Shown piece by piece: positions 14,968 through 47,919 of a DNA stretch of 64,000 nt. The stretch is from Pochonia chlamydosporia 170 (taxonomy: Eukaryota > Ascomycota > Sordariomycetes > Hypocreales > Clavicipitaceae), in assembly GCF_001653235.2 (NCBI RefSeq), contig NC_035794.1, positions 4,092,001 to 4,156,000 on the forward strand. The letters are read 5' to 3'. The position numbers were made by a program, and so were the translations under genes. Below the pieces are notes generated by a model. It was not told the DNA's origin and made no database searches. It saw only the letters and a program-made list of their open reading frames with translations. The first letter of the stretch is position 1; each line of letters opens with the position of its first letter.

Positions 14968-15804
14968 TCAATCATCCCAAAAGTCCTTGCCGCCGTACTT
15001 ATTCCCCAGCATCGCCGTCCCTTTCACCTGAACGCCGTCATACTTGTGAGAGCCTCCCATCGCACCACCTTTCCAGTCACCACTGTACGCATCACCAGCA
15101 TGCGCTTTCCCATCAACCACAACATTCAAGTACTGATGACCAGTGAGAACTTCCTTTGCAGCGGATTCGAGCAGACTGTCCACACTCTTGGCTGAGTTCT
15201 CGACCAACGCTACGCTGTCCTTGCTCCCAAGTTCAGCAACTTCTTGCTGAGCCAGAGCAATTTGCGCCTTCGGTGCTGGGAATAGCCTCTCAATATTCTC
15301 AATTAGCGAGGTGATGTCGTCAATCAGGTTTCGAAGGTCCGCCTTGCGATAAATCGCCCATGTCGTAAGCTTCAAGAAACTGGCTCCTTTTTGGCGCTTT
15401 ACTGCCAGCTCTCTCATCTTCCTCTGCAACGCTACATTGGGAGGATCCATTTCGGTCAAAGAAATAGTTGAGAGATCGTCATCAGGTTTTGCAACCGACT
15501 TGTACTTTTTCGAGATTTCTTCAGTCTTGGCGAATAGGCCGATGATTTGCAGCAACGCATCCTTTGCTAGTTGTGTTTCCGCTGCTGTTGCGTTGGTCTT
15601 GCCCAGATTCGGATCGTGGTAAATATTCACAGACTCGCCCCAGCGTGTGAGACGCAGTCTCGCGCAACTCAGGGAAAGCAAATCAGTTTGGAAATCTCGC
15701 CCGAAATGGCGGCCAATCTGCACATATTCGAAACAGTCGACGCATGCCGTGAATGCGGCAGCAACTCCCACTGCACCGGACACAATGCCGAAAGGTTCTG
15801 CCAT
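14968..15804 (-). CDS. HET-S-like HeLo-domain protein with C-terminal amyloid-type repeats
   Basis: This intronless ORF of 278 aa begins MAEPFGIVSGAVGVAAAF, the short hydrophobic N-terminal helix of HeLo domains, followed by CVDCFEYVQIGRHFGRDF. In Podospora HET-S this helix inserts in membranes when the C-terminal amyloid segment templates it, killing the cell. Residues 1 to about 220 form the HeLo region. Residue 33 is His, the residue of the pore-forming HET-S allele rather than the Pro of HET-s. Asp23 is also kept. The tail carries two repeats, residues 228-244 and 257-275, sharing A-x-x-G-[DN]-x-Y, and ends in a HET-s-like YGGKDFWDD. A divergent NLR gene starts 757 bp away with the same motif. 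The predicted role is membrane-attacking effector in an amyloid-triggered incompatibility or immune response. Confidence 0.92.
   Translation of the reverse strand: MAEPFGIVSGAVGVAAAFTACVDCFEYVQIGRHFGRDFQTDLLSLSCARLRLTRWGESVNIYHDPNLGKTNATAAETQLAKDALLQIIGLFAKTEEISKKYKSVAKPDDDLSTISLTEMDPPNVALQRKMRELAVKRQKGASFLKLTTWAIYRKADLRNLIDDITSLIENIERLFPAPKAQIALAQQEVAELGSKDSVALVENSAKSVDSLLESAAKEVLTGHQYLNVVVDGKAHAGDAYSGDWKGGAMGGSHKYDGVQVKGTAMLGNKYGGKDFWDD
14980..15123 (-). repeat. two HET-s-related amyloid motif repeats in the HeLo protein tail
   Basis: Residues 228-240 (VVVDGKAHAGDAY) and 258-270 (VQVKGTAMLGNKY) align without gaps on Val, Gly, Ala, Gly, acidic/Asn and Tyr. The copies are 30 residues apart, linked by a Gly-rich loop. 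In HET-s two such pseudo-repeats stack into a beta-solenoid amyloid. The alignment is read directly; the fold is inferred. Confidence 0.8.
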
Positions 15805-16561
15805 CTGGAGAGATAATGTGAAGCTGAAGATGCGAGTCGTTGGATGCAGTGAATGAGAAAAAATTAGACTTGGATTGCACGTTTGTTATAGAGCACAACT
15901 GCACATAGTTCTTGCGCAACCTGTGGCTCAATTTACGGATTTAAGCATCGTCTTTCAGGCTTGAAGTTGCCAGGGTTCAGGTAGCGGAGAATAATGTTTT
16001 CTTTTCTTTGCTCAATTCGACTCTTGTCGCTCTAGGCGGCGTTCCATGAGTGTCCAGTCGTTAGCTTATCTGTAGCTGAGCACTCAATGCTTGTTTGAGC
16101 GGTGGTCACTCCGAACTATCGATTAGTTAGTTCCTCATGAAGGCTTCGGATTTGACGCAAGCCATGCAACCCCCTGCGCATTATGTCCGGCTGAAAAAGC
16201 AACTGTCTTCGTGAAGTGAGACGTGCATGATGCGGCTATCGCCTCATCTTAAACTCTGAGCCCGTATTTCCGGCTGATTGGAACTTTCTTTCAAGCGGCT
16301 TTCATGATAGGTCACTCATGACTTGCTCCTTTTGCTGCTTCTGCATGATGAGAGGCGGTGGTAACCACGTGTGCTAGGGGCACAGCTGAGGAATATTGAA
16401 CGCCACAGAAACAAATACTTGACCCAGCGGCATGAAGAATGCAACCCTAGCTTTGATGACTCGAATTGTAATGAACAAAAGCTCATTTAGACCCATGAAA
16501 CCCCTTGGTTCCGTGTCACCATGATGCGGTCTCGAAGGCCCTTGGATGTCATCACATCAAG
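15805..16561. promoter_or_regulatory. shared divergent promoter region of the HeLo and NLR genes
   Basis: This 757-bp interval separates the starts of two divergently transcribed genes. It holds no coding frame of note. A bidirectional promoter is inferred from layout; no specific operator was recognised. Confidence 0.55.
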
Positions 16562-19386
16562 ATGGCATCTCAGGAAGGCACTGACGATGGAACGAGCAGC
16601 ATTGTCGCGAAGAGCCTCACCACAAGTGCTAGCCATAACTACACGAATACTGTAATACAGGGATCAGCTCGCGCTCATCTTGGTGATCACTATGAAGTTC
16701 ACATCCATGGAGGTAAACACCAACAGTGCCAGACTGCCGAAGGAAGCTCACCTGTGTTTTTTAACTAGTGGTTGTCGGACACCAAGATCCTTCGCCCCCA
16801 GGCAAAAAGGAGCGACTACACCGACTGCCTGCTCTCATCAGTACCAATTTTGTTGGTAGACAGGAAGAGCTCAAGTCTATGAGACAGCATCTCACCTCAG
16901 AGAATTCTGGTCACCCACGGCGCAGTGTAATTTGTGGTGTCGGCGGAGCGGGAAAATCGCGACTTGCACATGCTTATTATGCCAAGTATGCTTCAGAATT
17001 CTCGGCGGCATTCTGGGTCAGTGGCAAAGATGTTACGTCAATGCGAAACGATTTTGTTGCTATTTCCCGCTATCTGAAGCTGCCAGAAGCTCCTCCATTG
17101 GATGCGACCGACGCCGAAAAACCGCAGTCGCAAATCGCTGCTGTGGAAGCCGTGGTACGGTGGTTCGAGGGTGGTGATGGCGACTGGCTTCTCATCATCG
17201 ACAATCTAGAGATGGAGGCGGAAGATTTGTTAGACTACTTGCCATCAGGAGAAAAGGGCCACGTTATCATCACGACACAGAATCGACAAGCTGCTAGCCT
17301 GGGACCGACGATAGACCTTGGTGAAATGAGTCAACAGGATGCTCTCCAGCTCTTCCTAAGCCACGCCAACTTGACCCAACCTACTGACCAAGAACTGGCC
17401 ATCTGTGAGGAAATCATATCGAAGCTCGGGAGGTTGGCTCTGGCGGTAGAGCACGCAGCAGCCTTTGTTCAACTCGACAAGATGCCCCAGCGCTATCTCC
17501 AACAACTGGAAGGGGAGCTGGGCAATGCGCTGGAACGATCGCCAAACTATACCAATCACAAATTGTCAGTAATGGCAACGTACAAAGTTACCTTTCAGGC
17601 TATATTTGAAACACATCGACAGGCAGCCTATTTGCTCACGTTTATCGGCGCACTAGATGGCGAATCTCTGCCAGAGCGCATTCTCAGAGCCCCAGCTGCT
17701 ATGCCAATGATCAAAGGCTGGTGTGTATACGATTCGAAAGATTGGAACTTTCTGGATGACTACTCAAAGGCCCTCGACATACTGCAGAGTTACTCCCTTG
17801 TGCATTTAAAATATCTTGAGGACGGGTCGACAGCTATCACAATGCATGCCCTTGTCCATAAATGTGTGCAGGCAAAGCGCAACCAGGAGTCGCAATGGAT
17901 ATACTTGTACAAAGCAGCCATGATTATTTTGATCGTGACAACCAAGGAGCCCTACCATGCGTCGACTTTTGCACAGGTCCGATATCTCCTGAAGACGGTG
18001 ACAGAACGGGCACAGCAACCGAGCACTGGCAAAGTCCCCGAGGATATCTGGCTTCTGCTTGGGCATCTCGTTTTCGCTCACAGGACGTCATGGCAAGCTG
18101 CGGGCAATGTGCAAGAGCTCAATGCCTATGCAGAGACGATAATGAACGCTTTAAAAAAGTCGGAGAGAGAACAAGATAGGCTCGCGATGGTTATATTATC
18201 GACAGTGTATGCCGCGACTGTGGCATATTGTAATAAGTCACAGACAGCTGAGGAGGCGAGCCTGGCGTTTCTCTATGGCGAAATGCTACCAGCTGTGTCA
18301 GAGACTCTACGAGCCGCTGACAAACTGATGGCCAAATCTAGTGAGGTCGTAACTCTTGACTTTCAGCCTTCTACCTTGGACGTTGTCTACAGACATACGG
18401 AACCGCCGCAGTATGTGTTGGTTTTGAGAGAGTTTATGAAGTCTGTTGCGAGGTTTTACATGGGGCGAGATCAACCGGAAATGGGCGCTCTCTACTACCA
18501 CATGAGCCAACTGCCACTCAAGAGTACCATTCTTTCAACAGTACGGGGAGTATTCTCGTCGCTGACAGCAATACTTCCCGCATTCGTCGCCGGACCCACG
18601 GCAGAAGACGAGCTCTGCCAGCTACAAAAGAAGGCGGCATATGGTAGAGCTGCCGGGGAGATTGACAGCACTGTCGAATTATTTCGCTTCATCATCTCCA
18701 AAGATAGAACAGGGCCCGAGGATCCGGTGTTTGATGTAACATTGTGCGATTACATCAAGCTACTCTGTAAACTTGGTCGTAGGGAAGAAGCCGCCGAGGC
18801 ACTGGACAAGTTCAAGTATCCCTCACCCGAGCAGTCAGAAGCTGACATAGCGATGGACTATAAAGACTACTACTTATGGATCCGGAAAGCATTCGTCATG
18901 GCTAAAGACCACCACGACACCCATCCCGAGGTCGAAAGACAACTCCAGGACACATATTCCGTGACAAAAGCAGTTTTTGGGACGAAATCACTCAACGCTA
19001 TGCACGCGGCTTTTCTTCTACATACATTTTACTCACAAAGCTGTTGCTATAACCACGCCATGGTGCAGAAGTACAGCGAGGACTGCAGACAGCTGTTTGC
19101 GCAGCTTTACGGTGGTAAAACCAAGCTGCAAAAGTCTGAGGGTTTGTACATGGCTAAAATACTCTTGAGTCAGGGGGCACTTGAAGAGGCGGTATTTTGT
19201 TTGGCATTGTTTGCTGAGTTGGCTGAGGGGGAATTGGGGCCGGATGATCCTATTACGGTGCCGGCTAGGCGTTTGACAGAGGTGGCGAAGAGGGAACGGG
19301 AGGAGGAGTTGGAGGAGGTGAGGAGTGGGAAGGTCAGCTTGCGATGGGGGTGCTGTAGTTTTACGCGGGATGTTTCACGATTATGA
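16562..19386 (+). CDS. NLR (STAND) receptor: amyloid-type motif, NB-ARC, TPR-like repeats
   Basis: This signal-transducing NTPase has 922 aa from exons 16562-16712 and 16769-19386. The first exon encodes a short leader with TVIQGSARAHLGDHY (residues 30-44), resembling the amyloid motif of the divergent HeLo gene. The NB-ARC core follows: NFVGRQEEL, Walker A GVGGAGKS (about residues 107-114), LLIIDNLE kinase-2 near 190, GHVIITTQNR, and a KLGRLALAVEHAA GLPL-like block. The C-terminal half is helical and TPR-like, for example LLCKLGRREEAAEALDKF and LLSQGALEEAVFCLALF. In the known system, ligand sensing oligomerises the NLR, its N-terminal segments nucleate amyloid, and this templates the HeLo effector. 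The start is the first in-frame ATG. The ligand is unknown. No break is seen. Confidence 0.92.
16652..16693 (+). other. N-terminal amyloid-type (HRAM-like) motif of the NLR
   Basis: The segment encodes V31-Y44. Aligned with the HeLo protein's second repeat, IQGSARAHLGDHY and VQVKGTAMLGNKY share Q, A, L, G, D/N and Y at the same spacing. It lies in a separate short exon, as expected for a signalling adaptor. Amyloid formation is inferred. Confidence 0.72.
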
Positions 19387-20242: not shown

Positions 20243-21638
20243 ATGAACTGCAACGAGCTCCAAGAGGGCGCGAAACCTCAGCGGTACATCATCAAGCGAC
20301 CGAAGGCGCTGCAATGGTTCTACAATGGGCAGCTATACAAGGAGAGCGACGAAGAGAGACAGGCTGGGCGATTTGAACTGTTTCTGGATCTGTTGTGTAA
20401 GTGCTCTCGACTGAAGATTCCATTCAATGTCACCTTGCTCATACTCTGTCGCCGCAGATGTCGCGATTGTCGCCAACTTTAGCGATGACCTCGCCGAACA
20501 CCCGAATGGCGCGCATCTCGCCAAGTACATACTCATATTCGCGCCGGCATGGCACATCTGGGCGGACTTGCGCGAAATCATGAATTCCTACTACACGGAT
20601 GACTTGCCGCAGCGCGTCTTCATCCTCTGGGTCATGGCGCTGCTGGTGCTGTACGCGAACAACGCGAGGGCAGCAGATGTCGATATCGACGCCATGCGAA
20701 CAACGGCCGGTGCCTACGTCGTTGCTCGATTTTCGACAATGTGCGTGTTTCTCATCAGTTCGTTTGCGAGCTATCAGCACCGGGCGCAGGCTCGCCTCGT
20801 CTCGGGCTTCATGTTCATCGGCCTATTCATCACCATCCCCCTCTTCTTCGAGTCCATCAGCATCCGTGGCAAAGCTGCCGTCGTAGCCGTCATGATTGTC
20901 TACCAGGAATTCACATGGTCTCTCTCCCTCAGCCCGTGGATCAAGCGCCGCCTCAAGCTCAAGTACAGCACGGCCGTCGACATTGCCCACGAGGTCGACC
21001 GCATGGCGGCCTTCTTCATCATCATCCTCGGCGAGTTCATGTACAGCGTCATCGTGGGCGACCCAGCGGGCATTGGTCTCACGCAAGGCTACGCAAAGGC
21101 CGTGTGTACGCTCATCATCGCCTTCTGCATCAACTGGATCTATGTCAGCGGTGACGGCAGTCTACAGGCCACGCATCCAATTCGCCGCTCTGCCTGGACG
21201 GCGTTTGGCTTCTTCCTGCTTCATCTGCCGCTGTCGGCGTCGTTTCTCATCGGCGGACACATCTGCGCCATCAGCACCAGACTACATGAATTTGAGGATG
21301 GACAGCGCTGGCTGTTGGGAGGCGGACTTGGCGTCGGTTTGTTCTGTCTTTGGGTGTATGGCCAGCTTTATCGCACTGAGGACGAGGATTGTCTGGTTCT
21401 GCCGAAACAGGCACGCATAGGTATGCGTTTGGTGGTGGCTATTATTTTGATTGTGCTCCCCGAAACGCATGATCATTTGACGACGACGGAGTTTATGGTT
21501 ATTGTTATGGCGTTATTTGCGTTTTTGACGATTTGGGAGACAATTGGGGGTTTGATGAAGGGGGCGAGTTTCTTTGAGCCATGGACGGGACGAGATGCGC
21601 CTGAGGAGGAACACGATTCCAATGAGGCATTAACATAA
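20243..21638 (+). CDS. LtrA-family (low temperature requirement A-like) membrane protein
   Basis: This is a multi-pass membrane protein of 444 aa from exons 20243-20396 and 20458-21638. The motif split by the intron, FELFLDLLY then VAIVANFSDDL, is the family's hallmark. Many hydrophobic segments follow, including VFILWVMALLVLYAN, MCVFLISSFASYQ, FMFIGLFITIPLFF and AFFIIILGEFMYSVIVG, where the charged GEF sits inside a helix. The name comes from a Listeria gene linked to cold growth; biochemical function in fungi is not established. The N-terminus is uncertain: 20243 is the first in-frame ATG, but the frame is open upstream. The tail is hydrophilic and acidic. Family members are common in bacteria and ascomycetes. 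Confidence 0.82.
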
Positions 21639-22880: not shown

Positions 22881-25523
22881 TTACAGCGCTACCGATGACG
22901 CCTTGACATTTCCACCATTGACAAGAACCTTGGCTTCCCGTCCGTCACCGCTCACTGTAAGCGCCAACTTCTCCTTGGGCCAGAGCGTCACGTAGTTATC
23001 CGACCAGATCGCAGGGTTGACGTCCTCACCAGACTTGTCCACAAGATTCAAGCGGACAAAGAATGCAGGCACATCCGACTTGTTCTCCAACACGACCGAG
23101 TGAGCCCTGCCGGCCTTGGATGCCTTGACGGACAGTTGAGCAGGCTTCATCTTGCTCAGGGCGCTATAGTCGGGGAACTTGGTCACAGGAGTGTGGTACC
23201 ACGTCGAGTTTGGCCAGTTGAGAGTATCAACACTCTTCGTCAGCCAGTATACATTTCGGCTGAGGACCTCACCCTTGTCGTCCGACAACACGAGTCGCAA
23301 AAGACCAACATCCTTGATATTGCTGACACCCGAGACCTTGGCGGCCTTTCCAGACTTGTTGGGAACAGTGTTGGCGGTCACTGAGTCCTTGGAGATTGAC
23401 TTGCCGTTAAGGTCAATCAGTTCAACAGCAATCGTGCGCTTGCCCTTCTTGTTAAGGCTGTGGTTAATAATCCACGCCTCCTGGCGGACATAATCGTACG
23501 CAACGTGTTCCAGTCGCGAACCGACCTTGGTACCGAAGTAGGAGCCAGCGGGATGCAGATAGTGGTCAAACTGATTCCAGTGCAAGCTGGGCCAGGCATT
23601 GTTCAGCATCCAGTAAATGGTACCCGTGGCTGGGCGATCCTCGTTCCATCGAGCAGAGTAGCCTTCGTGTTGTGCGCGAATGGCCTCGTAGTCCATAAGC
23701 TGGGCCTTGAAAATGTAGTCGTCAAGTGACTTTGGCGCGCCGTAGCGCTTGAACAAACCTTCGTTGTAGATCTTGCGATTGTAGAATGACGATGTGTTGG
23801 TTGACATGTGGAAGGAGTTGGCATTGGGCTTCTTCCAGAGGTCTTCCATCTCGCTCTTAGTCAAGAATTTCTTCAGACTGCTAATCTCAGGGGTGCCAAC
23901 GCCAGGACCAAGCTCGGAGCCAAATCCAAAGGCGGCACCAAGACGATCCTCAGATGGCTCAGTATCGTACCAGTAGTTGGGGGGCACCCAGTCGTAAGGG
24001 CCATCCATCTTCATACCAGACGGGCCAAGAAGCGCTGGGAAGCCACGCTTGGAGGCCGACGCAATGACTGGAGTCTGCCAGTACGAGTCCTTGAGAGCAT
24101 CAACGTAAATCTTGGTGGCACGGTCATTGGGCCAGAAGTCGCTGCCAACCAAGAATCCAAGCACACTTGGATGAGGCTGCATCATGGCAGCTTCGTGTCG
24201 CATGGTGGCATTCGCCGTCTCGTAGTCGTTCTCTGTCCAGGGGGAATTGGGATCGATATCAGTGTTGTACTCCCAAGCCTCCCACTTAGAACAGCACACA
24301 AATCCAGCTATAATCATCATGCCAGCTTCGTCAGCCATTCTGTACAGCTCAGGGTGTTCCATCATGCCCTCAAGACGAATGGTGTTGAGGCCCATGTCGT
24401 GCGAGTATTTCATAATGTTTGCCCATCGCTTGGCATCCCAGCGGAAGAACATATCTGGGCTATATCCACCACCTATAACCTGGAACGGGTAGCCATTGAC
24501 GGTAAACATGGTGTCATTGTGGCTGTTTACAGCCGACGTGACAGTTCGAATGCCAAAAGTTTCCGTCGCAGAGTCGGAGAGTTCATTCGCGACATTTACT
24601 GTGAGCTGAGCCTTGTACAAGGGCTGGCCACCCCAGAACTTGGGCCACCAAATCTTCGGCTTCTTGACATCGTGCGTAAGCTCGATAAGTTTGGTTTCTT
24701 TGGCCGCCAGTTTGATGGAAGTCTTCTTGGACCCGACTCTGCACCCAGAAGACTCAGAAACGAGTGAAGCCGCATCGACCTGAACCGCGTGGTCCTCGAG
24801 GTTCTGCAACTTAGCACGGACTGTAACCTTGGCGGGGTTGGACTCGACTGGAACCTTGATATCGACCGACACACTCATCGGGCCCAGAGCAACAGGGCCG
24901 GTCTGCTTGACAGTGATCTCTCTCCAGATACCGCTACCATTGTCGGGAGCATGAGGGCTCCAGTCCACGAAACCGTAAACGAGGTCCAAGTTGAAATCCG
25001 CGGGATACACGTTGACGGCGAGAGCATTTTTGGCACCAACAAGGCCGCTGATGTCGTAGGTATGGCCCCCAAAAGAACCAGCCTGCTCCTTTTTATCTGC
25101 AATTTTCTTGCCGTTGAAGAAGAGGTCGGCTCGGGAGGTGATGCCGTTGGTTTGAAGGAAGAAATGTTGGCCCTTCTTCGGCGCAAGAGAGAACTCGTTT
25201 CTGTAGACCCAAGGAACGCGAAACTGGCCCCAGTTGACCTTGTTGAGGTTCTCTGAGAACCACACCTCATCCTCATTGTATTCTCCAGACTCAAGCATAC
25301 AGCCCATAACGGTGCAGCGAGAATCTTTTACATGATGCCACGACGACGTGTCAACACCAGGCTTAGACAGTGAGGCAAGGTCCTTGCTCACAGAGGACGA
25401 CGACTGAAAGTCCCAGGTAGGAATAACCCCAACCTGGCCGGCCTTGGACGTCAATGCACTCGTGGCCGAAACCAGAGCACTGCCGCCGGCAAGCAGCAAG
25501 GTCAACGCGCTTGTTATCGCCAT
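22881..25523 (-). CDS. GH2 exo-beta-D-glucosaminidase (secreted, chitosan-acting)
   Basis: This single-exon gene encodes 880 aa, the normal size for GH2 exo-glucosaminidases, which remove glucosamine from chitosan ends outside the cell. Residues 1 to about 20 form a signal peptide (LTLLLAGGSALVSA). The GH2 sandwich, Ig-like and barrel domains follow in order. The acid/base is Asp462 in LVGSDFWPND, not the Glu usual in GH2; this Asp marks the glucosaminidase subfamily. The nucleophile is Glu537 in FGSELGPG. Other barrel marks are NTIRLEGMMEHPELY and MLNNAWPSLHWNQFD. A TATA-like CTTATATTC lies about 80 bp upstream on the minus strand. The main alternative is beta-mannosidase, less likely because of the Asp. 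Chitosan use would fit turnover of fungal walls. Confidence 0.9.
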   Translation of the reverse strand: MAITSALTLLLAGGSALVSATSALTSKAGQVGVIPTWDFQSSSSVSKDLASLSKPGVDTSSWHHVKDSRCTVMGCMLESGEYNEDEVWFSENLNKVNWGQFRVPWVYRNEFSLAPKKGQHFFLQTNGITSRADLFFNGKKIADKKEQAGSFGGHTYDISGLVGAKNALAVNVYPADFNLDLVYGFVDWSPHAPDNGSGIWREITVKQTGPVALGPMSVSVDIKVPVESNPAKVTVRAKLQNLEDHAVQVDAASLVSESSGCRVGSKKTSIKLAAKETKLIELTHDVKKPKIWWPKFWGGQPLYKAQLTVNVANELSDSATETFGIRTVTSAVNSHNDTMFTVNGYPFQVIGGGYSPDMFFRWDAKRWANIMKYSHDMGLNTIRLEGMMEHPELYRMADEAGMMIIAGFVCCSKWEAWEYNTDIDPNSPWTENDYETANATMRHEAAMMQPHPSVLGFLVGSDFWPNDRATKIYVDALKDSYWQTPVIASASKRGFPALLGPSGMKMDGPYDWVPPNYWYDTEPSEDRLGAAFGFGSELGPGVGTPEISSLKKFLTKSEMEDLWKKPNANSFHMSTNTSSFYNRKIYNEGLFKRYGAPKSLDDYIFKAQLMDYEAIRAQHEGYSARWNEDRPATGTIYWMLNNAWPSLHWNQFDHYLHPAGSYFGTKVGSRLEHVAYDYVRQEAWIINHSLNKKGKRTIAVELIDLNGKSISKDSVTANTVPNKSGKAAKVSGVSNIKDVGLLRLVLSDDKGEVLSRNVYWLTKSVDTLNWPNSTWYHTPVTKFPDYSALSKMKPAQLSVKASKAGRAHSVVLENKSDVPAFFVRLNLVDKSGEDVNPAIWSDNYVTLWPKEKLALTVSGDGREAKVLVNGGNVKASSVAL

Positions 25524-26872
25524 GATGTTGGACGAGCTGTATCAATTGATGACGGCAATCGTTGGCTGAACATTTCCGAGTCCGAGACACCGGGACGCTC
25601 GAATATAAGTATGCCAGACCGGAGATCTACAACGTTACCCTGACAGGCCGCCAAGGCCACGGGTCTAGTCTCAGTATCGCTTCTCATGGTGGACAAGACG
25701 GGTTGCACCAAGCTGGCATGGTGGTGAGTTGAGCCGGCCCTCAAGGTCGGACCAACCCCAAATGTCAAAGACAAGGTTCAGAAGTTGGTCTGGTGGTTCA
25801 AGTGGGGGTTTACTCTTGGAGTCGGCTTCAGAGAGGACAGGGGTCTGGTCAAGCATGCCAGGTCCAGGTACGCCGCACAACACAGGGTTCGTGCTGGGTG
25901 GTCAAAATATTTAAGGCTGTCACCATGTAAGCATCATGAGGTCGGGAATGATGCAGCGCGACTCGGTTGAGATGAAAAGTGCCAATTCTCATTCTGGCAC
26001 GGCGTACGAGGTCTGGTGAAGCCGTGGATGATGAGACCGGACATCAAAGGTCAATTCAATATCGCTCCTTCCTCCGGTTCTGGATTCGTGCCTGCCATTT
26101 GCTCTGGTTCACTCCTTCCCTTGGCTCGTGCCTGAGCCCCAGAGATTACCCCAACACACGGCAACGCCTCCTCATTGAACTTGCTTGCTCCTTGGCCACA
26201 ACCAGAGTGTTGACGCCTCTCTCCATCTCTGCTGCATATTTTCTTCACCCAGACCCCATGTTATCTCCAGACGCCGCCACGCAGTCATTCATGCACCATC
26301 GCCTAATTTGACGGGCGGAGAAATGAGAGCCGGCGCCATCCTTCATCTGGTCAGGTCAGCACTGCCTTCTCGCATCTCTTATCCTTCCTCTCCACGGCTT
26401 CCATTGCAGCTTTCACCAAACAACGAATAAGGACGTCGATCAAGCGGCCAATCTCACCATACGCCCCTCTTCTTGACGACCTTAATCGATTATCTCCTCT
26501 TCCCATCGCCGGGTTTGCCGAACTTGACCGGCGCCTCACCAAGGGACCCCGAGCTTCGCCTGCACATGAGGTTGCATGCAGTTGACGCCACGAGACTCGC
26601 CCAATCACTTTTGGAAGAACAACATCTCCGCATGCATTATTGACGCTGGTTTATGGCAGCTCCCCATGGTTCATCTGTTGATTCTAGCTTCGGATACAGC
26701 TTGAACACTGACATCGCTGAACCTGCCCCATTTTTGAATTAGGCTTGGGTTGGAGTTTGTTGCGGGTGTGCTCCGCGAGCCGACACACGTTTTGACTGAG
26801 CCTTTCCAACCGTTTCAAGCCGGTGCATTATGGAAACTATCAACCTGGCTCCTGAGTAATCTGCCAGACTAA
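25524..26872. other. divergent promoter interval, GH2 gene to Zn2Cys6 gene
   Basis: This 1.35-kb gap lies between divergent genes. Apart from a TATA-like site near 25604 on the minus strand I see no coding signal. Short frames on both strands overlap and have no domains. Confidence 0.55.
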
Positions 26873-29230: not shown

Positions 29231-31774
29231 CTACTGAAGCAACTCAAATTGCCGTCGTCCTTGTTCATCAGTCTTGAGTGAATGAACAGTCGCACCATCT
29301 TCTGCAACTACAGTTCGCAAATCGCCGGCGGGAAGTATTATGACGAGTGTCTTCCAAGGAGCCACAAATCCCGAACGCTCGTCCCTCGAAAATTTGACAG
29401 ACACCTTGGACTCATCAACCCTATAGGAAACGGTGTACTTGGAAATCTTTGCTTTGGGTGCAACTGACACACCATCATCTTCGAACCACTCCGTCTCATA
29501 CCAATCCTTCGCACTCTTTCTGCGAGGTGGGAAGATTTCTACTGCGCGGTAATCATCCAACGGTAAATCAGCCACATTCTCCTTCTCACCCGGAGATAGG
29601 ACCTGGACGTCTCGGCCAACTGGAATAGCCGTCCCAACCTTCGCCAGGACTGGAATACCAGCCCCATGCCACTCTGCGTCCAAAGTGATCCACTGGCCCG
29701 ATTGGAAATGCTGATACGGCGCGTTGAGGTTCAAGAATCCCTCATCGGCTTCAGATGCCCTGGGTAGATAGACACGCGCCTGTGTCACGCCTGGCTCATA
29801 CACGCCTCCAATGAGGAGAGAATCTCCGAGCCAATATTGGCATTCGCCGTCCATGATCTCTGGAGTCCATATTTCTGGATCACATTCGTATCCCCAACCA
29901 GTCCAGCGTTGCGGTGGTACGGCTGTCTTGTGACTCGCCAACATGAGCGAGTACAGATACGGTATCATGGCATAGCGACGTTTGATCGTCTTTCGGACGA
30001 GGTGTGTAATTGATGGATGCATCCATGGCTCAATGACGTCGCCAACATTGTTGTCGTCGCCAGTTTTGAAACAGTTGATGGCGAAACGAGGGGAATAAAT
30101 GCCAAGCTGCACCCACCGAAGAAGCAGCTCGGGAGAAGGCTGTGGCCCTTCAAATCCACCAATATCGTGACCATAGCACTGCATCAAGCACATGCCGGCT
30201 GTCAGTGATAGCGCATTTGCGCCTTTCATGCCCGGCCAACTAGTGATATTGTCACCACTCCAGGAGCTGCAAGCGTATCTCATAGTGCCTGCTGTAGCAC
30301 TCCGAGTAAGGACAAATGGTCTGCAGTCTGGATCAGCCTCGAGCAATGCATCATGAGATGCCTTGCCGTGAAGCTCTGTATGGACACTTCGCCCCCAAAG
30401 CCCAACATCGCGACGTTCTTTGAGAGATTCCGGTACTTCTAGAGAAGGTTCATTCAGGGCACACTGCCAACCGTCGTCTGTGATGGTGTATTCATTATTG
30501 TCGTTCCAAATACAGTCAATTCCTTGTTCGCGGAGCTTCTTGACTCCCTCAAACCACCACTTGAATCCGGCTGCTGAGGTGAAGTCGATATGACCACCTT
30601 CACCACTTTCACCACCTCCTGCGCTCCATAGTCGTGTGACAGCCGTGGTTTTTGTGTGGGGATCTGTGAAGAAGGCGCCGGCATCCTTTAACTTCTGGTA
30701 TTCGGGATGACTTGCCAAGACGTAGGGCTTCACATTGGCAATTAGCCGCATGCCTAGCTTGTGATACTCCTTGATCCATCCTTCGGGATCAGGGAAGCGG
30801 TGCCTATTCCACGTGAAGACATTTCGTGTCTTGGGCTCCTGCTCAGCCACTGTGTATCCTGATGACATTTGGTATGCAGAGCAAGGAATGTCGTGTTCCT
30901 TCATCTTTCGAGCTAGATCAAGAAGCGCCTCTGACGCAGGCGGGTCATCAAGCATGGAATACTTCATACCGCCGGAAAGATAACCGAATGCCCATCGAGG
31001 GACGAGGAGCGGAAACCCAGCAAACTCGGCATACGTAGTAACGATGTCTTGCAGAGTCTTGCCGACAATGATAATCTCCTCAAGACCGCCATAATCTTGC
31101 CGATACACCTTGTAGTGACCCCACATACCATCCATCTCGGCCCCGATAGAATATTTCCCCCGTCCATGACTAGTTGAAAACAGCGCAATACATCCATTAG
31201 GGGTTGCATTGATGAGGAGTGGAATATTCTTGTATAAAGGGTCTGTCTTGTAGACGTCGTAGCCGAAACTATCTGTGGCAGACAACTCAAATCGTCGACC
31301 AGACAAATTCATGGGAGCAGCCTTTTCACCAAGACCGACATGTAGCGTACCGCGCTTGTAGCGGGAATAGTGAGCGATGCCTTCACCGTCAACAACATAT
31401 GATCGATGAGGAAGATCGGTATGTAACGGCTCCTTGGAGTCGGCATACGAAATGCTAACGAGTGGTGACGATTCACTCCAGTCAACATTGGCAATGATGT
31501 CTCCAATGCGGATTTCTCTGCTCGTATTGCTACTTCCATCACCAGTCTCCGCCTTTAAGCCTGCTTGTCTGGCAGGGGGGACTAGAATGCTCGGGTGAGG
31601 GGGCAGAGGATGCGATTCAGATGAGAATGTAGTTCTGAATACATTTGAACGAATGAGCTCAAAGTTGAAGGTGAATGGTAAGGCTTGGTTTGTGGATTTC
31701 AGTTGTATGCTGGGTTCGGTGCTTGAGGCAGTGATGTGCTCCCATGCCGAAGGGACTTGCTCTTGTTGAGGCAT
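29231..31774 (-). CDS. GH31 alpha-glucosidase/alpha-xylosidase-like enzyme, intracellular
   Basis: This intronless retaining alpha-glycosidase has about 847 aa from the ATG at 31774 (MPQQEQ). An in-frame ATG at 31852 would add 26 residues lacking family resemblance. The nucleophile is Asp425 in IWNDNNEY and the acid/base is Asp508 in SSWSGDNITSW. GH31 marks also include YLSGGMKYSMLDDP, a PKPYVLASHP-like Asn-Val-Lys loop, and KRRYAMIPYLYSLM. No signal peptide is present, suggesting cytosolic cleavage of imported oligosaccharides. The WNDNNE form of the nucleophile motif separates it from maltase-type GH31, so alpha-xylosidase or a related alpha-glycosidase is possible. Neighbours include transporters and galactosidases further right, so it may trim decorated oligosaccharides. 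Substrate is not fixed by sequence. Confidence 0.87.
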   Translation of the reverse strand: MPQQEQVPSAWEHITASSTEPSIQLKSTNQALPFTFNFELIRSNVFRTTFSSESHPLPPHPSILVPPARQAGLKAETGDGSSNTSREIRIGDIIANVDWSESSPLVSISYADSKEPLHTDLPHRSYVVDGEGIAHYSRYKRGTLHVGLGEKAAPMNLSGRRFELSATDSFGYDVYKTDPLYKNIPLLINATPNGCIALFSTSHGRGKYSIGAEMDGMWGHYKVYRQDYGGLEEIIIVGKTLQDIVTTYAEFAGFPLLVPRWAFGYLSGGMKYSMLDDPPASEALLDLARKMKEHDIPCSAYQMSSGYTVAEQEPKTRNVFTWNRHRFPDPEGWIKEYHKLGMRLIANVKPYVLASHPEYQKLKDAGAFFTDPHTKTTAVTRLWSAGGGESGEGGHIDFTSAAGFKWWFEGVKKLREQGIDCIWNDNNEYTITDDGWQCALNEPSLEVPESLKERRDVGLWGRSVHTELHGKASHDALLEADPDCRPFVLTRSATAGTMRYACSSWSGDNITSWPGMKGANALSLTAGMCLMQCYGHDIGGFEGPQPSPELLLRWVQLGIYSPRFAINCFKTGDDNNVGDVIEPWMHPSITHLVRKTIKRRYAMIPYLYSLMLASHKTAVPPQRWTGWGYECDPEIWTPEIMDGECQYWLGDSLLIGGVYEPGVTQARVYLPRASEADEGFLNLNAPYQHFQSGQWITLDAEWHGAGIPVLAKVGTAIPVGRDVQVLSPGEKENVADLPLDDYRAVEIFPPRRKSAKDWYETEWFEDDGVSVAPKAKISKYTVSYRVDESKVSVKFSRDERSGFVAPWKTLVIILPAGDLRTVVAEDGATVHSLKTDEQGRRQFELLQ

Positions 31775-32816
31775 TGTGAATGAGAAAGCAAAGCTGAGAG
31801 TTCTTCGACTACAAACAAACTGTGTCGATGTTGAGGCTTTCACAATGATCAATCTTCACGAATTGAGCAATATATACGTCTCTCTGCAATGCTACTGTAT
31901 CATCTTTTCTCCCCGCAACTACATGTTACCAATGGCGAAACCGGGTCCACCACATGGTGATGTTGAGCGCAATAACCGGTCCATCTACGGACAATGATGC
32001 CCATATCCGAGCAGTGGAGAGCAAGCCGCGTTACAGAGTCATGAACCAGGCCTCTCTGCATTGACTATTGCCTGCCAAATTATCCATTTACCCATACAAT
32101 ATCACATCGAAACGGACATCTCAGAATTAGTCCGAAGCATGGCCTCACACAACAGTCGGGGATTCAAGGCACAAGTCCGATCGGAGAAATGTGCGCATCC
32201 CCGATGGCGTTCAGCCAAGAAGCCACCAACTGCCGGCTTTTGGTCCGCGATGCAGGCAAACAGGAGACCAACCGCAAGCGGTTTGCCCAAAAGAGCCTTG
32301 AGGAACGAAAGGTTGACTTGATCTGGTGGTTTGTGAAAAGTTTATGTGAAAAGTTTATATAAAGGAAGTTTATATACGGGGTGGATCTCTCAACGCAATA
32401 GCAGACTCAGAAGTTGGGGCGGGAGCTTTTAGTGGCCGACTCCAGTGCGGGGGTTTAGGACTTGTCGAGCCAGGGATGCCGTAAAGAAACTAAAAGTTAG
32501 ACAGCCGATACGCTGAAACGTCTAGTCAAAAGATCATCTGAGAACGGGACAATTCTCTTCCGACGTCTTTACCACTCCGCGTCTGTATCTGAGGATACAC
32601 AGCAAAGAAGGGGAAGCAAATCATTTAGTCAGATTCCATTTAGTAGTTTATATTCTCACATTATTGTCTCAATCATCGCTACGTGCCCAGTTCGCCTCGA
32701 ATTACCATGTCGAGGGGCTGCTGAAGTGCTCAGTTCATTGTCCCTGTACTGCTGTCTTCCGTCGATGTCACTGTTCCCAATTTTTGACGACTGTATCCAA
32801 TTTACTTATGTCTACT
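31775..32816. other. GH31 promoter region and possible left edge of the Helitron
   Basis: No gene is supported in this gap of 1.04 kb. A TATA-like TATATAC near 31869 could serve the GH31 gene on the minus strand. The Helitron's left end should lie between about 32,300 and 32,816, but I could not fix a terminus. Confidence 0.45.
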
Positions 32817-33957: not shown

Positions 33958-34914
33958 GGAATAGATGTTTTACTACGGCCTGTTATCCAGGGCCGGCCAG
34001 GCAGACTCTACGCGCCAGGCAAAGGCTCAGGGCATGTGAGCGCCTACGTGTCATCGCGCTTTCAGCTCTGAATGCTATCACATGTGTAGTGAGAAATGGT
34101 CCATGGCTTTTTTTGTTACAGAGCAGAGCTGATGGAATCATAGAAAATACAGACATGCTTCACAATGCTAGCCGCTTTAAGCGACAAATCCCAAATGGTC
34201 GGCAGGGTAATGTTTGCTCGTTGTCGTCGCGAAAAAGCAATGTCGGAAAAAGCAAAACCATATCAGCCGCCCCCCCGCCCCCCTTCTTCTCTTTTTAGTA
34301 ACTGAAGGCTATGTGGATTTAGTCATCTGGCTGGTAATTTTGAAGATTGGGGTGTGATACGTAGGGGTCTTGTTGGTCAAGTGTCTTCGGCGTGCTGTCT
34401 AGCCTTGGGATAGTTCCCGTGTCTCTTGCTGTGCATAGTCTGGTCATTTGGACGGTGATTCTGAAGATTGTGGCATGTGGTGGTGTGGATAGTCGGTCAT
34501 CATTGCTGTCAGGGACTGGCCGGGCCATGCTGCACACGAGTTATCACGGTCCGACGGGTCATCTGCTGGTGAAGTGTCAGGGGTTGGCCGGGTCATCTGT
34601 CCACGAAGTCGGTAGTATTTCGTGGGTGGAGGACACGGTTTGTATGTGGAGGTATCGTGTCTACGTGAGGAAGGGAGGTGGTGCGGGAAGAGGTGCGGGA
34701 AGGCAGGTGCGGTCTGGGGAATTGGTGGTGTGGCCGATATTGAGAGAGAGGTCAGATCGAATGGGGGTGGTATAATCTGGACGGCGTCAGCGCAGGAGCC
34801 GAGATGGAGTTTTGCGCGGTATAGAGGAGATGCAGAGATCCCAAGGTTATAGCTTTGGGAATAATAGAATCACGTCCACAACAGAGATAGTGAAGATTCG
34901 ACGGGTCGGGGAAA
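33958..34914. other. divergent leader between the two Helitron ORFs
   Basis: This 957-bp interval lies between divergent starts and probably contains both promoters. It includes a C-rich run near 34270. I see no gene. Confidence 0.5.
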
Positions 34915-37900
34915 ATGCCAGGCGCGCTGCAGAACAGCCGAGTGATGAGAGGTCAGGGTGACGAATCTAGAAGTGTCGAGGCCCTGAAGACGGTGAGCCG
35001 TATCTGGGGCGTAGACAAGGTTCAGTATTACCAGTGGGCGTATAGTGGGATCAATTTCTGCAACAAACTCTGCGCAGCGGCTCGCAAGGTGAGCGATTGG
35101 GAAGAAGCTGTAGTGAAGTTAAACATGTTGCTTCACAGACGATCCCAGCAGCTTGGACGACGGCCAATTAAGTACTCGGTCAACCCTATCGAATCGGATG
35201 ATTTGATAAACTTAAGGGCCTGGTCTCATAAGGATCCATACGTCAAGAAAAATGACCGTGAGAGAATCAGTCTAGTTTTCAGCAATCTGGCTGCCAGAGA
35301 CTTGCCGGCCGGGTTTGGTTTCGATAAATTCGGGCTGATGGTACGAAGTGGACAGCAACAGTCAGGCGGCGATCAGCTTTCGCGGGAGGAGATAGAAAGC
35401 CGGAGTCCTTGGGATGGCGGTGACTGGGTTCGAGACCGCACTGAAGGGCGCCTGCGGGAAGGACACGGGAATCTGGCGCGTTTGAGGACGGTGAGGCGCA
35501 TCTGGGGCGGAGACAAGGTTCAATATTACCAGTGGGCGCATAGGGGAGAAGATTTCTGCAAAAAACTCTGCACAGCGGCCCGTCAGGTGAGCGACTGGGA
35601 TGAAGCTGTAGTGAAGTTGAACAGGTTGATTCACAGACGAGCTGAGCAAATTGGGCGACGCAAAGTCAAGCAATCGGTCGACCCTATTGATCCGGATGAT
35701 TTAGTAAATCTGAAAGCTTGGTCTCATAAAGATCCATATGTCAAGAAGAAGGATCGCGAAGGAATCGCGCTGTCTCTCAGCAAGTTGGCTGTCACAGATC
35801 TGCCAGCCGGTTTTGGCTTCGACAAGTTCGGGCTGATGGTACGAACGGAAGAGCGACAACTAGGAAGCGTTGAAGAGAGTGGTTTAGGTGTGGGGCGCTG
35901 CAATCGGCAGAATGTGGTACATACGGGTGGCAAACAAGTCAGGACGGACAGGAACCGCCGGCGGACCAAGGTCAGAAGGCCGAGAGACGGCTTCGCAAGC
36001 AAAGCCGTTGCTAGGCCGGGGGACCTATTTCGGGCGTTCAGGCGCGTGCGCGACGGGGACGAACAGGCCACGGCGCAGGTAAATCCGGGCTCGAGAGAAA
36101 TTCGTGGGTCTTCGTTGGGGGTTTTGGGACGCTTGGAAGTGCGCGAGGGAGAGAGTATGGCGCTTGCGGGTATCGGCATCCGAATCTCGGCAGACGTAAT
36201 TCGGGCTGCGCAAAATGATTTGGGACAGGCCAGGGCGGAGAAGGATGCTCGGCGAGGGGAGAAGAAGAGGCAGGGTCCTAGTAACACAGATGGACTGCGA
36301 TCAAAACGTGCTAGAATCATGGTCCGCCAGGAGAGAACTGAGAGCGATCAAGTGGAGGACCTTGCCAGTGTTCTGCGCTGCATGAATGAAGAATTTGCGG
36401 AGAAAGAGCGATTGTCCCACAGCCAGGAATGGAGTATTCCTGTTTCTCTTGAGAAGAAGGTGTCCACCGTCCAGGAATACTACAGTGCGTTCCATGACGT
36501 GAGCACCCTGCCGATACATACCTGCACGATCTGTTATCTGAAGTATGCTAGAGTGGATCTGGGTGAGGTTGATTGGGATCGGTGGGTGGTAAGTATCGTC
36601 GAGAAACGTGACAATTCACCTTTTAGGTGCAGGCGGTGCTTTCTGCCGGGAAAGAAGATTGTGGCTTGTTTTGACTGTCTGAAGCACCTTAAAAGAGGTG
36701 CCTTGTCTCCTGCAGCCCAGTTGCATACTAGGCTCGGGTGCGAACATATGTTTCCCGACGAGTTGAAGGGCCTTACGCCGATCGAGGAAAAGCTTATCGC
36801 GCTGAACTCCTGTTATGGGTTCATCACCAAGTACAGTTTAGCAGACAGGCACAGGCAGAGTGTGAGATATCCGAAGCATGTTAAGGGCAACATCACAGTC
36901 TTCCCCAATAACGTGCAAGAGCTAGTGAGAGATGTCCTACCTCACCCGCTATTGAAGGTGCTGGATGAGGTGCACGTGTCCTGGCAGGGTGTTGAGAAAC
37001 CAGCATCGAGCGATCTTTCAGCGCTTTTGTCGGTGCGGGGCGGCGCCGCGTCGTGGAGAGGGCGCTGGTATGGCTAAAGAGGTACAATCCTCTATATGCC
37101 GATATCCATATTGATACCGCGGAAATGGATAGCTGGGGTACGGCCGTACATGGCGTACCCTCTCAGATCTACGATCGTTTGGAGCGGAACGAGCCGTCGG
37201 CGTCGGAGAAGGCACGAACAGAGCCAGTTGTTCCACGGACAGAGCGTGGTCTGGAAGAGGACGGACCCGTTGATATCCGCCATGTTCTAGCTATGCTCGG
37301 CCAAGGAGACGATTTTGTTGCAGATCCAGCCGAGGGGAGTGAGCAGGCTAACGCAGTCGGCGAAGATGGAAATGAGGAGGAGGCGGAGCTTGAGAGTGGC
37401 GCCGAGGTGATCCACGAGATCATCTCGTCCGGGATGTTCGCTCTCGATGACCAGCCGGACATCAGGGATGCGGAAAAGTTGCAGCGCGTTTGCGACGCTC
37501 TGAGCCAGGAGGCTGTTCGCGACGACAAGGGGGCAAGTGATTGTGCGGGGTCGGCCGAGGTGCGGCGTGGATACACATCCGAACCTTATATTGTTGTGTC
37601 CCGTGGCGAGGAATTTGCCGATTCCTTTGATACGCGGTTCTTTGCAAAGGCATTTCCGACGCTGTTCCCGGTCGGAAATGGAGGCCCACGGCAAGCGGAG
37701 GAGAGCGTCGCGGACACGGCAGGGGACGGGGAAATGGTCCTTGACGCGGACGCCACAGCGCGGAGTCTAGTGTCGTCCCGGAACATGAGCCTGGAGACAT
37801 GGGCAGGCTTGGTTCTCCAGCGTCACGGCGGTCGCTTTGCGACACACCACGTCTTCGCCTTTCTCGTCTTTAACATGGGCGTCAGGTCAAGGAACCGCCG

Positions 37901-40900
37901 GGTGAGCATGCTAAGCGTGAGAAGGAAGAATTTCCGCGAAGTGGAGCGTATTGTTCGATCGCTGACCGCAGAGAGGCTGGGGGAGGCCAGGGCTGAGTTA
38001 GAGGAATCCGGGAAAACTGTCGACGAGGCAGTCAACAAGCTGTTAAGGAGCCTGTCTCTGTAAGGGTTTCGCCAGCCGATGTCAAGGGAGAATCGTTTAA
38101 GTATGCGGCGGAAGATCAAGGCCCTCGTAATTCGGTACGGCATTCCGGCCATTTGGTTCACGCTGAACCCAAATGATATCACGAACCCAGTCAAGCTCAG
38201 GCTCGCGGCACACCGCTTCCGGGACCCGGACGAGGCCGAGGCCTTCTTAACGAGTCTCGACCTGGCATACAAGCGGGCGAGGCTGGCGATTTCGGACCCT
38301 CTCAGCTCGGCAATTTTCTTCCACAGGGAGATCGAGATGTTCTTCAAGTACTATGTGAGGACAGGGGAGGACTCGGTGTTCGGGCGTATCAGTCAATACT
38401 TTGGAGCTGTGGAGACCAACGAGCGCGGCGCGCTCCACCTCCACGGCATTCTCTGGCTTCAAGGGAACATGCATCTGAGCTCCATCCTCAAAGATGTGCA
38501 GGGGGAGGACCAGGCAACATATCGTGATCGGGTGATCCAGTACGTAGACAGCGTCTTCGCGGAGGTAAGTTTCTGCCGCATAATGTCCTAATCCAATACA
38601 GTCGTTTAACACGGGGCAAACGATGCAGGACCTCGACCAAGCGGCATCCGCGGCAGTTCAGGCGGAGAGGTCTGTGACGTCAGATATATCATGGATGTTG
38701 CAGAACAGCCACCAATTTGCCGCAGCGTTCGACGAGGAGGCAAATTTCTGCGCCGGCGCCACCCAGATACACACCCACAGCCCGACTTGTGTGAAGTATT
38801 CCATTAAGAAACAAGGGAGGAAGCGTAACCTCTGTCGGTTCAAAGCGCCTTGGAGACTTGTTGAGAAGACTGCGTTTACGGAAGACGGAGTGTTGCGGAT
38901 TCGACGCAGGCACGAATGGGTAAATCGTTGGAACAAGGCGATAGCTGTAGGGCTGCGGCACAACCATGACATATCGTTCATCGCGACCCAGTGTAAGACC
39001 TTGGCCATAGTCTACTACGTGACGAACTATGCAACCAAAGTGGAGGATCCCGTATGGAAGCGTGTGGCAGCTGCGGCAGACGTATTCCGCGTTCTGAAGG
39101 ACTCGACAAAGGGGTCTCAGGCGGGTGTCGCGCAGGTTGCTAGCGAGGATGACAGTCGTCAGAACAAGACGCGGCAGTTCTTGATGAGGGTTGCGAACCG
39201 GATATTCACGGAGCGGCCCTTGTCGCAGGTAGAGGTCGTCGCCAATTTGCTGGGCTACCCTACCGAGTTTGCAAACAATGACGCATGGACGTTTTTAAAT
39301 GCATCTTCCCTCTACTGGCACATCTTCCGACGGTGGAGCCACCTGCGAAGCGCGAGTGGTATGGAGCATGTGGACGAGCCTATGGACGAGACGGTCCTTC
39401 TGGAGGAAGCTGGGGAGAGGGTCTCCTTTGTGCAGGCATACCCGCACCGTGGCAGACTTCTGCAAGGCCTGTCACTGTACGACTATATGTCCTTGGTCAA
39501 ACTGAAGCGGAAGGGCAAGAGGGCAGCTACTTGGGGCGAGCTGGAGTTTGACAGTGTCTGGCCGCTCTCGCAGATGTGGGTGCAGGCATTGCGGAGGCCG
39601 GGTAGGCATGCCGTCGTCTGTCTGGACGGCTACCTCTGCATGGATTTTGGCGAGGAAGAGGAGCTCTATCACAGGAGGTATGTACGCCCCAGTGGCCATC
39701 AGATCTGGATTGTCGTCCAAGAGCGGCAGGGTCCGGAACAAAGATTGACATTGGTAGCGCAGGGCGGCCGTACAACATCTGGCCATCTTTGTCCCGTGGG
39801 AGTCGTTCTTGTCCGAGACGTCAGGCGATATCAATACCATTTGGGAGAGACAAAAACAGGGTCTGGCTCGCAGGGTGTCATTTCTTGTAGACAACGTTCA
39901 ACTACTCCGCCGGTCCGCCGAAGACGTGAAGCGAGATGCCAGACAGTGGGCCGCCATGTCCGGAGAGACAGATCCTATGGCTGACGTGACCGAGTCGGGC
40001 ATGGCTGATGGCGATGATGAGCTGGGAATAGGGTACCGGTCAGACAATATCGGCAATGCAGTTCGCCTCATTGACGTTTTCAGAAATGCGGTAGGAAGTG
40101 GTCAGATCACGACCGGATCAAAAGAAATCTCGACAATGGTGCAGGAACTGTGCCGATTTCAGGTAGCGTCCCTGTGCTCGACGGATGATCTGCGTGCCAC
40201 GGTGGTTATAGAGCGAGGACCAAGAACACTCGGCCTCCGAGGACACCCGTCTTCGGGGGCAGAGATCCCGAGACAGGAACAGGTCAGGTCTATTAAATCG
40301 CAGCAAATAAGCGCGTCCAAGGAGAGGGAGAGGATGATCCAGGGGGTGCAGAGCCTGGGCAGCAACAACACGACCGGTCACAGTAGAGCTGCGTACAGTG
40401 TCCTTCACGGCTTCGGCGAGGACGACATCTCCATAACGGCCGCAGACTCGGAGACTGTCGCCGGGGCCACAGGCCCGTCAACGAGCATCGGGTTTGGGCC
40501 GGCCACGTCGTTTCTGGAGGCAGGGAGGCAGCTCGCCGTGTCCTTCACGCTCAACCAAAGACAGAGCATTGCCCTCCGACTGATATGCCGTCAATTGGAC
40601 CGAGTGCGTCGCGATGAGCGAGGTACTCCCCAGCTCTGCCAATTTGTCGGAGGCGAAGGCGGCACTGGAAAGTCGCGGGTCATCGAAGCTATCGCCGCGC
40701 TGTTTGCAAGCAAAGGAATATCGCATCGTCTGCTGGTAACGGCGACATCAGGCACAGCAGCAGCACAGATCAATGGTATTACTATCCACTCCGCGTGCAA
40801 TTTGTCCAAAGGCATCTTGCGAACAAGTCTATATACGCACGTCGACGGGATTCGTTCTTCCAGCTCGGGTGACCTGTACATCGATGGCCAGGCCAGGATG

Positions 40901-42718: not shown

Positions 42719-42741
42719 TTATCCCCTTCCTCCCTTCCGTC
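42719..42741 (-). promoter_or_regulatory. polypurine tract for plus-strand priming
   Basis: On minus the sequence abutting the 3' LTR is GGAAGGGAGGAAGGGGATAA. It is almost all purine and overlaps the last codons and the TAA of pol, which ends exactly at the LTR border. Confidence 0.8.
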
Positions 42742-46504: not shown

Positions 46505-46528
46505 TCGCCTCGAGGCTATTCTTTTCCC
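46490..46528 (-). promoter_or_regulatory. programmed -1 ribosomal frameshift signal at the gag-pol junction
   Basis: On the transcript, the heptamer G GGA AAA (46528-46522) is in canonical phase with gag, two codons before its TAG. A 6-nt spacer (GAATAG) is followed by a 9-bp stem, CCTCGAGGC (46515-46507) with GCCTCGGGG (46498-46490), one G-U pair and an 8-nt loop. Slipping back one base enters the pol frame with no stop before its ATG. Confidence 0.8.
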
Positions 46529-47643: not shown

Positions 47644-47673
47644 GCGACAGGTTCCGCGATAGTAGATTGATTG

Positions 47674-47684
47674 AGCTTTAGATA
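47674..47684 (-). promoter_or_regulatory. primer-binding site, self-priming type
   Basis: The 11 nt directly after the 5' LTR read TATCTAAAGCT on minus. They do not begin with TGG as a tRNA 3'-end match would. They are perfectly complementary to AGCTTTAGATA in the same transcript's LTR (47747-47737). This matches the Tf1-type mechanism, where the RNA 5' end folds back as primer. Confidence 0.75.
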
Positions 47685-47919
47685 TGTAAGGGGCTGCGCC
47701 GCTGTTTGTTCAACATAAGGGTGCCGTATGATTGTCTATCTAAAGCTAGGGAGAAAGAAAGGAGAAGAGCAAGCTCGAGGCTCGCCTCGAGCTTGCGCAG
47801 TTAAGTTGCAGTGGCAACTTAGGCGAAATTAATCCAATTACACAACCGACCGTCTGCACGGCGCCGAAGCTCCGGGCCCGGCAGAGCCGGGTCCACAGCA
47901 TCGGGCATAGCCCGTGACA
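47685..47919 (-). repeat. LTR, 5' copy relative to transcription
   Basis: Its 235 bp are identical to the other LTR by reading. Transcription is expected to start near 47747 if the self-priming model holds, leaving about 63 nt of R-U5 before the primer site. Confidence 0.96.

Follow-up and report, generated by a model that had tools for sequence, protein, structure and literature searches.

For 98 of the 155 published HeLo-related proteins that end in a double repeat of a HET-s-related amyloid motif (HRAM), a NOD-like receptor (NLR) bearing the motif is encoded next door (PMC4518210), and such genes may be divergent or run in the same direction (PMC3321046). The closest described systems are het-S/nwd2 of Podospora anserina, the HRAM3 pairs, the HELLP/PNT1 and HELLF/FNT1 clusters and the NLR12/PNP_UDP pairs. 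Here, we examine positions 14968 to 19386 of a 64,000-nucleotide stretch of the Pochonia chlamydosporia 170 genome (NC_035794.1, positions 4,092,001 to 4,156,000; hereafter, the window), where a HeLo effector gene and an NLR gene diverge from each other. The two genes have open frames and adjoin each other, the effector has a HeLo domain, the receptor has STAND/NLR motifs, and a motif present in three copies, one in the receptor (r0) and two in the effector tail (r1 and r2), matches between these neighbors. Very probably, the locus encodes a two-gene cell-death switch of the HET-S/NWD2 type. A preliminary description had predicted a divergent HeLo effector and NLR pair sharing a HET-s-related motif. 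As a prediction this is supported: with two motif copies in the effector and one at the receptor N terminus, the pair shows the architecture published for nwd2/het-S and HRAM pairs (PMC3321046, PMC4518210). The features of the pair, in window coordinates, are the following.

14968..15804, minus strand: HeLo effector gene, a single exon coding for 278 amino acids plus a stop (open reading frame, Pfam, PDB matches, Foldseek)
14971..14994, minus strand: C-terminal segment GGKDFWDD, with aromatic residues and a diglycine as at the end of the HET-s prion domain
14995..15048, minus strand: repeat 2 (r2), HKYDGVQVKGTAMLGNKY, residues 253-270 by alignment; low-confidence predicted strands at 253-261 and 264-266
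15049..15084, minus strand: glycine-rich linker of 12 residues (241-252) between the repeats
15085..15138, minus strand: repeat 1 (r1), HQYLNVVVDGKAHAGDAY, residues 223-240 by alignment; low-confidence predicted strands at 223-231 and 234-236
15214..15789, minus strand: HeLo domain, residues 6-197 (Pfam)
15703..15804, minus strand: N-terminal stretch, residues 1-34, a predicted membrane-attacking helix carrying D23 and H33
15805..16561, no strand: region separating the two start codons, 757 bp from ATG to ATG
16562..16712, plus strand: NLR exon 1, residues 1-50 plus one base
16634..16693, plus strand: NLR motif r0, HNYTNTVIQGSARAHLGDHY, residues 25-44 (alignment; genome core-pattern scan)
16713..16768, plus strand: predicted intron of 56 nt, GTAAAC...AACTAG (GT..AG), the best choice
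16769..19386, plus strand: NLR exon 2, coding for the nucleotide-binding domain and the array of helical repeats
16936..16959, plus strand: Walker A motif GVGGAGKS, at residue 107 of 922

The effector reads from an ATG at 15804 to a stop at 14968 and requires no intron. Its HeLo domain scores 158.3 bits against a Pfam cut-off of 23.2 and sits in a protein of fewer than 310 residues. The N-terminal domains of HET-S and HET-s in the PDB match it by sequence with E values down to 4.5e-47, and its predicted fold matches that of HET-S (2wvo_A) with a TMt of 0.88 in Foldseek. The Pfam HeLo search had been proposed in the preliminary description, whose minus-strand HET-S-like protein with two tail repeats is borne out: the coordinates are exact and both peptides are present. 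In the published register, which sets the conserved glycine at position 19 (PMC4518210), r1 and r2 both have G19 and hydrophobic residues at positions 5, 8, 10, 16, and 18, once a gap of two residues is set at 12-13; at position 18, r1 has only an alanine. The loop from Y22 of r1 to H3 of r2 is 12 residues long, within the range of 6 to 18 applied to such loops, and GGKDFWDD closes the protein. Repeat 2 together with this segment matches 2mus and 2kj3 weakly (E of 0.33-0.41).

On the plus strand, the receptor frame starts with an ATG at 16562 and is open to 19386, provided that an intron is removed right after the motif exon. The 757-bp gap and the motif peptide in the first exon are both as first described. 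Splicing would join the motif exon to exon 2, giving a predicted two-exon product of 922 residues (16562-16712 plus 16769-19386); further in-frame acceptors are present, for example at 16801, and the VVVG with which exon 2 opens recurs in the relatives P0121 and P0122, whose predicted proteins start just upstream of it. The product has a P-loop, a Walker B motif at residue 191, an MHD-like motif at residue 409, and a C-terminal repeat array. Its best Foldseek matches are the STAND-TPR protein 6mfv, plant NLRs, APAF-1, and CED-4, from a predicted model of moderate quality (mean predicted local distance difference test [pLDDT], 64; predicted template-modeling score, 0.40); the NLR alignment comprised the first 8 of 37 NLR homologs. 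In Pfam, exon 2 falls just short of the cut-off for both NB-ARC (23.1 versus 23.5 bits) and AAA_16 (31.0 versus 32.6 bits), and a DUF7779 match is also below its cut-off. Of the initial label "NB-ARC NLR," the motifs and folds support the NLR part, while the NB-ARC model itself stays under threshold. The receptor, adjacent to the effector, carries a single N-terminal motif, and from H3 to Y22 this copy contains a single D and neither E nor K; published NLR copies are likewise poor in D, E, and K (PMC4518210).

In the published register, r0 reads H3, Y5, T8, I10, R15, A16, L18, G19, and D20; r1 reads H3, Y5, V8, V10, K15, A16, A18, G19, and D20; and r2 reads H3, Y5, V8, V10, T15, A16, L18, G19, and N20. 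All three share Y22. The element A-x-x-G-[DN]-x-Y, which had been put forward as the common motif, does occur in each copy, as the end of this longer motif. By itself it is just moderately rare: when exon 1 is shuffled, it arises in 362 of 200,000 cases, and it occurs six times, r0, r1, and r2 included, in 479,776 six-frame residues (the window and further loci, less four that repeat the window). Two HRAM-style patterns, chosen post hoc, occur twice (r0 and r1) and three times in the same residues. The pairwise alignments carry more weight. Exon 1 aligns with repeat 1 at a Smith-Waterman score of 53, which none of 20,000 shuffles attained, and with the whole tail at 57 (2 of 20,000 shuffles as high; 4 of 20,000 in a rerun); its score against repeat 2 is 37 (23 of 20,000), and the two repeats align with each other at 42 (3 of 20,000). 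Chance as the sole explanation of the shared motif is ruled out by these shuffles. Across the genome (44.2 Mb in 49 contigs), a core-pattern scan returned 19 matches, against 13 for the reversed pattern, and r0 is the sole one that continues into the motif. A search of the same genome for further copies of exon 1 or of the tail found the window alone; it was a weak search, with one candidate each in a first look.

The preliminary description had also suggested that the motif may represent an unusual HRAM class. To place it, we compared 121 effector tails, namely that of the window and 120 listed among 305 HeLo homologs found at E values up to 0.001. Every tail has a double repeat. H3 is present in 120 (r1) and 119 (r2) tails and G19 in 119 (r1) and 120 (r2); D20 of r1 and N20 of r2 are each found in 117. 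YGG follows r2 in 111 tails and FGG in another 4; r1 is never followed by GG. The features held to be unusual are therefore the rule in this family, and an unusual class is not supported. Histidine at position 3 marks HRAM3 (PMC4518210), and by this residue, present in r0, r1, and r2, the motif best fits HRAM3. HRAM1 combines Asn 3 with a hit to Pfam HET-s(218-289), and the window tail has His at that position. Three relatives, P0090, P0091, and P0118, form a distinct tail sublineage with a full-length repeat 1 and Asn 18 in both repeats.

The same genome contains a second HET-S line. Of the nine HeLo matches in the genome, two belong, as exons, to a single HET-S homolog on contig C9 (minus strand, from 168684 to about 169579), whose tail has Asn at position 3 and scores 75.5 bits against Pfam HET-s_218-289, a match that assigns it to HRAM1. 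In two other loci (L002 on contig C3 and L004 on contig C8), HeLo heads frames of 624 and 609 amino acids, with C-terminal ends that look kinase-like by eye, a further use of the domain in this genome. The divergent neighbor of the C9 gene, at C9:171388-171876 on the plus strand, opens with an HRAM1-like motif, NVVGQIHAHDSSSVHVGNK, followed by a GTAAAA site; its frame runs on into CCHC zinc knuckles (27.8 bits) and not into an NLR. This frame is a candidate non-NLR partner, or else an exon that is spliced elsewhere. Whether amyloid signaling operates without NLRs has been posed as a question (PMC7889193), and our literature search returned no paper combining HET-s, amyloid, NLR, and "zinc knuckle." Plus-strand frames lying between the HeLo gene and the zinc-knuckle frame (C9:170645-171203) resemble pieces of a NACHT-type receptor by eye. 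On the other side of the HeLo gene, a NACHT_N/NACHT/WD40 receptor gene occupies C9:161341-165023 (plus strand), and its frames gave no match to an HRAM-like motif. When the two loci were compared, window exon 1 scored 22 against the C9 tail, a value reached by 12,183 of 20,000 shuffles, in contrast to 57 against its own tail. The C9 motif scored 42 against the C9 tail (25 of 20,000 shuffles) and 29 against the window tail (2,343 of 20,000). The motifs thus match within each locus and not between them, as expected of two separate lines; HRAM classes often coexist within one species (PMC4518210).

Within its own family, the window effector belongs to a small group. In a tree of the HeLo part, excluding the tail, it forms one clade with P0001 and P0002 (support, 100/96). 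Repeat 1 is two residues short in 118 of the 121 tails and repeat 2 in 6, including the window; in the three clade members, repeat 2 lacks two residues in the second arch. A short repeat 2 was considered as a mark of the clade and rejected, as it requires four changes on the HeLo tree. At position 11, a published site of salt bridging between repeats, charges are opposite in 101 of 121 tails and alike in 5; the reversed arrangement, acidic in r1 and basic in r2, is confined to the window, P0001, and P0002. This pattern would fit in-register stacking of the repeats. The evidence is modest because the charges were reversed just once, in a single clade, and five tails carry like charges. It is conceivable, if rather improbable, that the clade has reshaped the amyloid interface to give a seeding code of its own, a new HRAM specificity in the making that neither the receptors of relatives nor the C9 line could trigger. 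Such a code would have its basis in the shortened second arch of both effector repeats and the flipped salt bridge at position 11, with r0 keeping a long arch and a neutral position 11.

How might the pair work? The NLR would sense a signal and oligomerize through its nucleotide-binding domain, so that the N-terminal motifs of the assembled receptors would gather into a short amyloid. This r0 amyloid would template both matching repeats of the HeLo protein, and the freed N-terminal helix of the HeLo domain would then breach the membrane of the cell itself. Templated amyloid signaling is likely because the two genes are arranged like nwd2/het-S and other HRAM pairs. It is by analogy that we infer ligand sensing, oligomerization, an amyloid and its passage from the receptor to the effector, damage to the membrane, and a biological trigger and role, and with them a complete and functional switch.

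Several observations weigh against such a switch, and some of them favor other explanations. AlphaFold2 gives the tail a pLDDT of about 30-46, with strands on r1 and r2; very low confidence would be as expected for a segment that stays unfolded until it is converted. The profile searches suggested for the motif in the preliminary description fared less well than the HeLo search. The Pfam HET-s(218-289) prion-domain model is unmatched by the window effector up to an E value of 1 (38 of the 155 published HRAM proteins match it; PMC4518210), and hidden Markov models (HMMs) of relatives' repeats score r0 weakly: an HMM of 118 relatives' repeats gives 2.8 bits, a value reached by 287 of 20,000 shuffles, an HMM of r1 alone gives 5.2 bits (78 of 20,000), and one of r2 alone gives -1.9 bits (7,890 of 20,000), where shuffles with no reported score were taken as lower. 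T8 of r0 also departs from the V, I, M, or L found at position 8 of relatives' repeats. The weak profile scores count toward the view that the likeness reflects chance or leftover ancestry without signaling, in genes that are neighbors by accident. We consider this very improbable, given that the alignment of exon 1 with r1 exceeds all 20,000 shuffles, that r0 alone among the 19 core-pattern matches continues into the motif, and that, at both loci, the motif fits the tail beside it and not the tail of the other locus. Since the pairwise scores are strong and the relatives' profiles weak, sequence comparison places r0 nearest to repeat 1 of its own neighbor and, measured against the family, shows it to be a diverged copy. 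The pairing appears to extend to relatives. The HeLo protein P0001 and the NLR P0121 (98% identical to the window's) have the same longest contig of 26159 bases, and the HeLo protein P0009 (70% identical) and the NLR P0122 (64%) that of 6480 bases; each pair very likely shares a contig, judging by these equal figures. A search with exon 1 alone against a large protein set yielded no homolog, and the P0121 and P0122 predictions begin near the intron end and do not take in r0.

The effector also carries D23, as does non-toxic HET-s (PMC3531502), and this counts toward the view that it is a HET-s-like prion form, with which the pair would signal without killing. We regard this as very unlikely. 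In the alignment of 60 HeLo proteins used for folding, D23 is the norm of the family (56 of 60), and H33, present here, occurs in 49; in HET-S, whose residues 1-34 have a described role, replacing H33 with P is by itself enough to make the protein HET-s-like (PMC3531502). Moreover, the N terminus is HET-S-like rather than HET-s-like in hydropathy, with a best 19-residue Kyte-Doolittle mean of 1.85 here, 1.81 in HET-S (2wvo), and 1.36 in HET-s (2wvn). A further explanation would sever the pair: r0 could be of the NLR12 type, whose motif resembles HRAM3 and which pairs with single-copy PNP_UDP effectors that are mostly unlinked (PMC9815663), so that the neighboring HeLo protein would answer elsewhere. 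The genome has 51 matches to PNP_UDP, the nucleoside phosphorylase domain. Yet in a one-pattern scan of 50 loci, covering 30 of the 51, the sole match beyond the window's own copies was chance-like (L012); the pattern is not exhaustive, for the HRAM1 tail in L007/L008 escaped it. Nor was a second tail-like place found in the genome up to an E value of 10 (one candidate scored), and r0 fits the neighboring tail far above shuffles, in a pairing that appears to be kept in a relative 64-70% identical. An unlinked PNP_UDP partner is accordingly a slim prospect, and a HET-S/NWD2-like switch encoded by the two neighbors is the reading we favor.

The pair lies among diverse genes. An LtrA-family membrane protein gene adjoins the NLR (window 20415-21638). 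Several glycoside hydrolase genes lie within 22881-56470, namely a GH2 exo-beta-glucosaminidase-like gene (22881-25541), a GH31 gene (29231-31855), an alpha-galactosidase gene with a ricin-type lectin domain (50703-52322), and a GH35 gene (54509-56470). About 15 kb from the pair, plus-strand open reading frames at 34894-42172 include a PIF1-like helicase as well as a match to DUF6570 and have the look of a Helitron-type transposon; minus-strand frames at 42719-47709, gag/pol-like by eye, resemble a Ty3-type long terminal repeat retrotransposon.

The locus adds a probable cell-death pair of the HRAM3 type, whose receptor is of the NB-ARC/TPR type, in one genome that also holds an HRAM1 line, and its natural relatives, which differ in the length of an arch and in having the charges reversed, offer material on seeding barriers between related signaling amyloids. 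With het-S/nwd2 of P. anserina, an HRAM1 system, it has in common the adjacent divergent genes, the HeLo effector with two C-terminal repeats, the single N-terminal motif of the NLR, and the closing aromatic/diglycine segment. It differs in its receptor, which is NB-ARC-like with a helical (TPR-like) array instead of NACHT-WD; in having H instead of N at position 3; in a second arch two residues shorter in both effector repeats; and in an effector that combines D23 with H33. HELLP/PNT1 of P. anserina likewise clusters two genes, one for an NB-ARC-TPR receptor and one for a HeLo-type effector (PMC7889193), whereas its motif belongs to the PP family and its domain is HeLo-like rather than HeLo. 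HELLF/FNT1 of the same species, of class HRAM5, shares the double HRAM tail and the adjacent NLR but has a HeLo-like domain and HRAM5 residues; the amyloid backbone of HELLF is reported to be virtually identical to that of HET-s (PMC7889193). NLR12/PNP_UDP pairs share the HRAM3-like motif and differ in carrying a single copy of it on an enzyme effector that is mostly unlinked (PMC9815663). For the HRAM3 class, a published legend names W9WR11/W9XJW2 of Cladophialophora psammophila as an example of such a pair, and R1, R2, and an NLR R0 have been given (PMC5485727); the available portions of the papers retrieved describe no experiment on the HRAM3 motif. Compared by class description, HRAM3 pairs resemble the window pair in His 3, in the hydrophobic positions 5, 8, 10, 16, and 18, and in Gly 19. 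The pair and its motif thus belong to a kind already described, with a small clade-specific twist.

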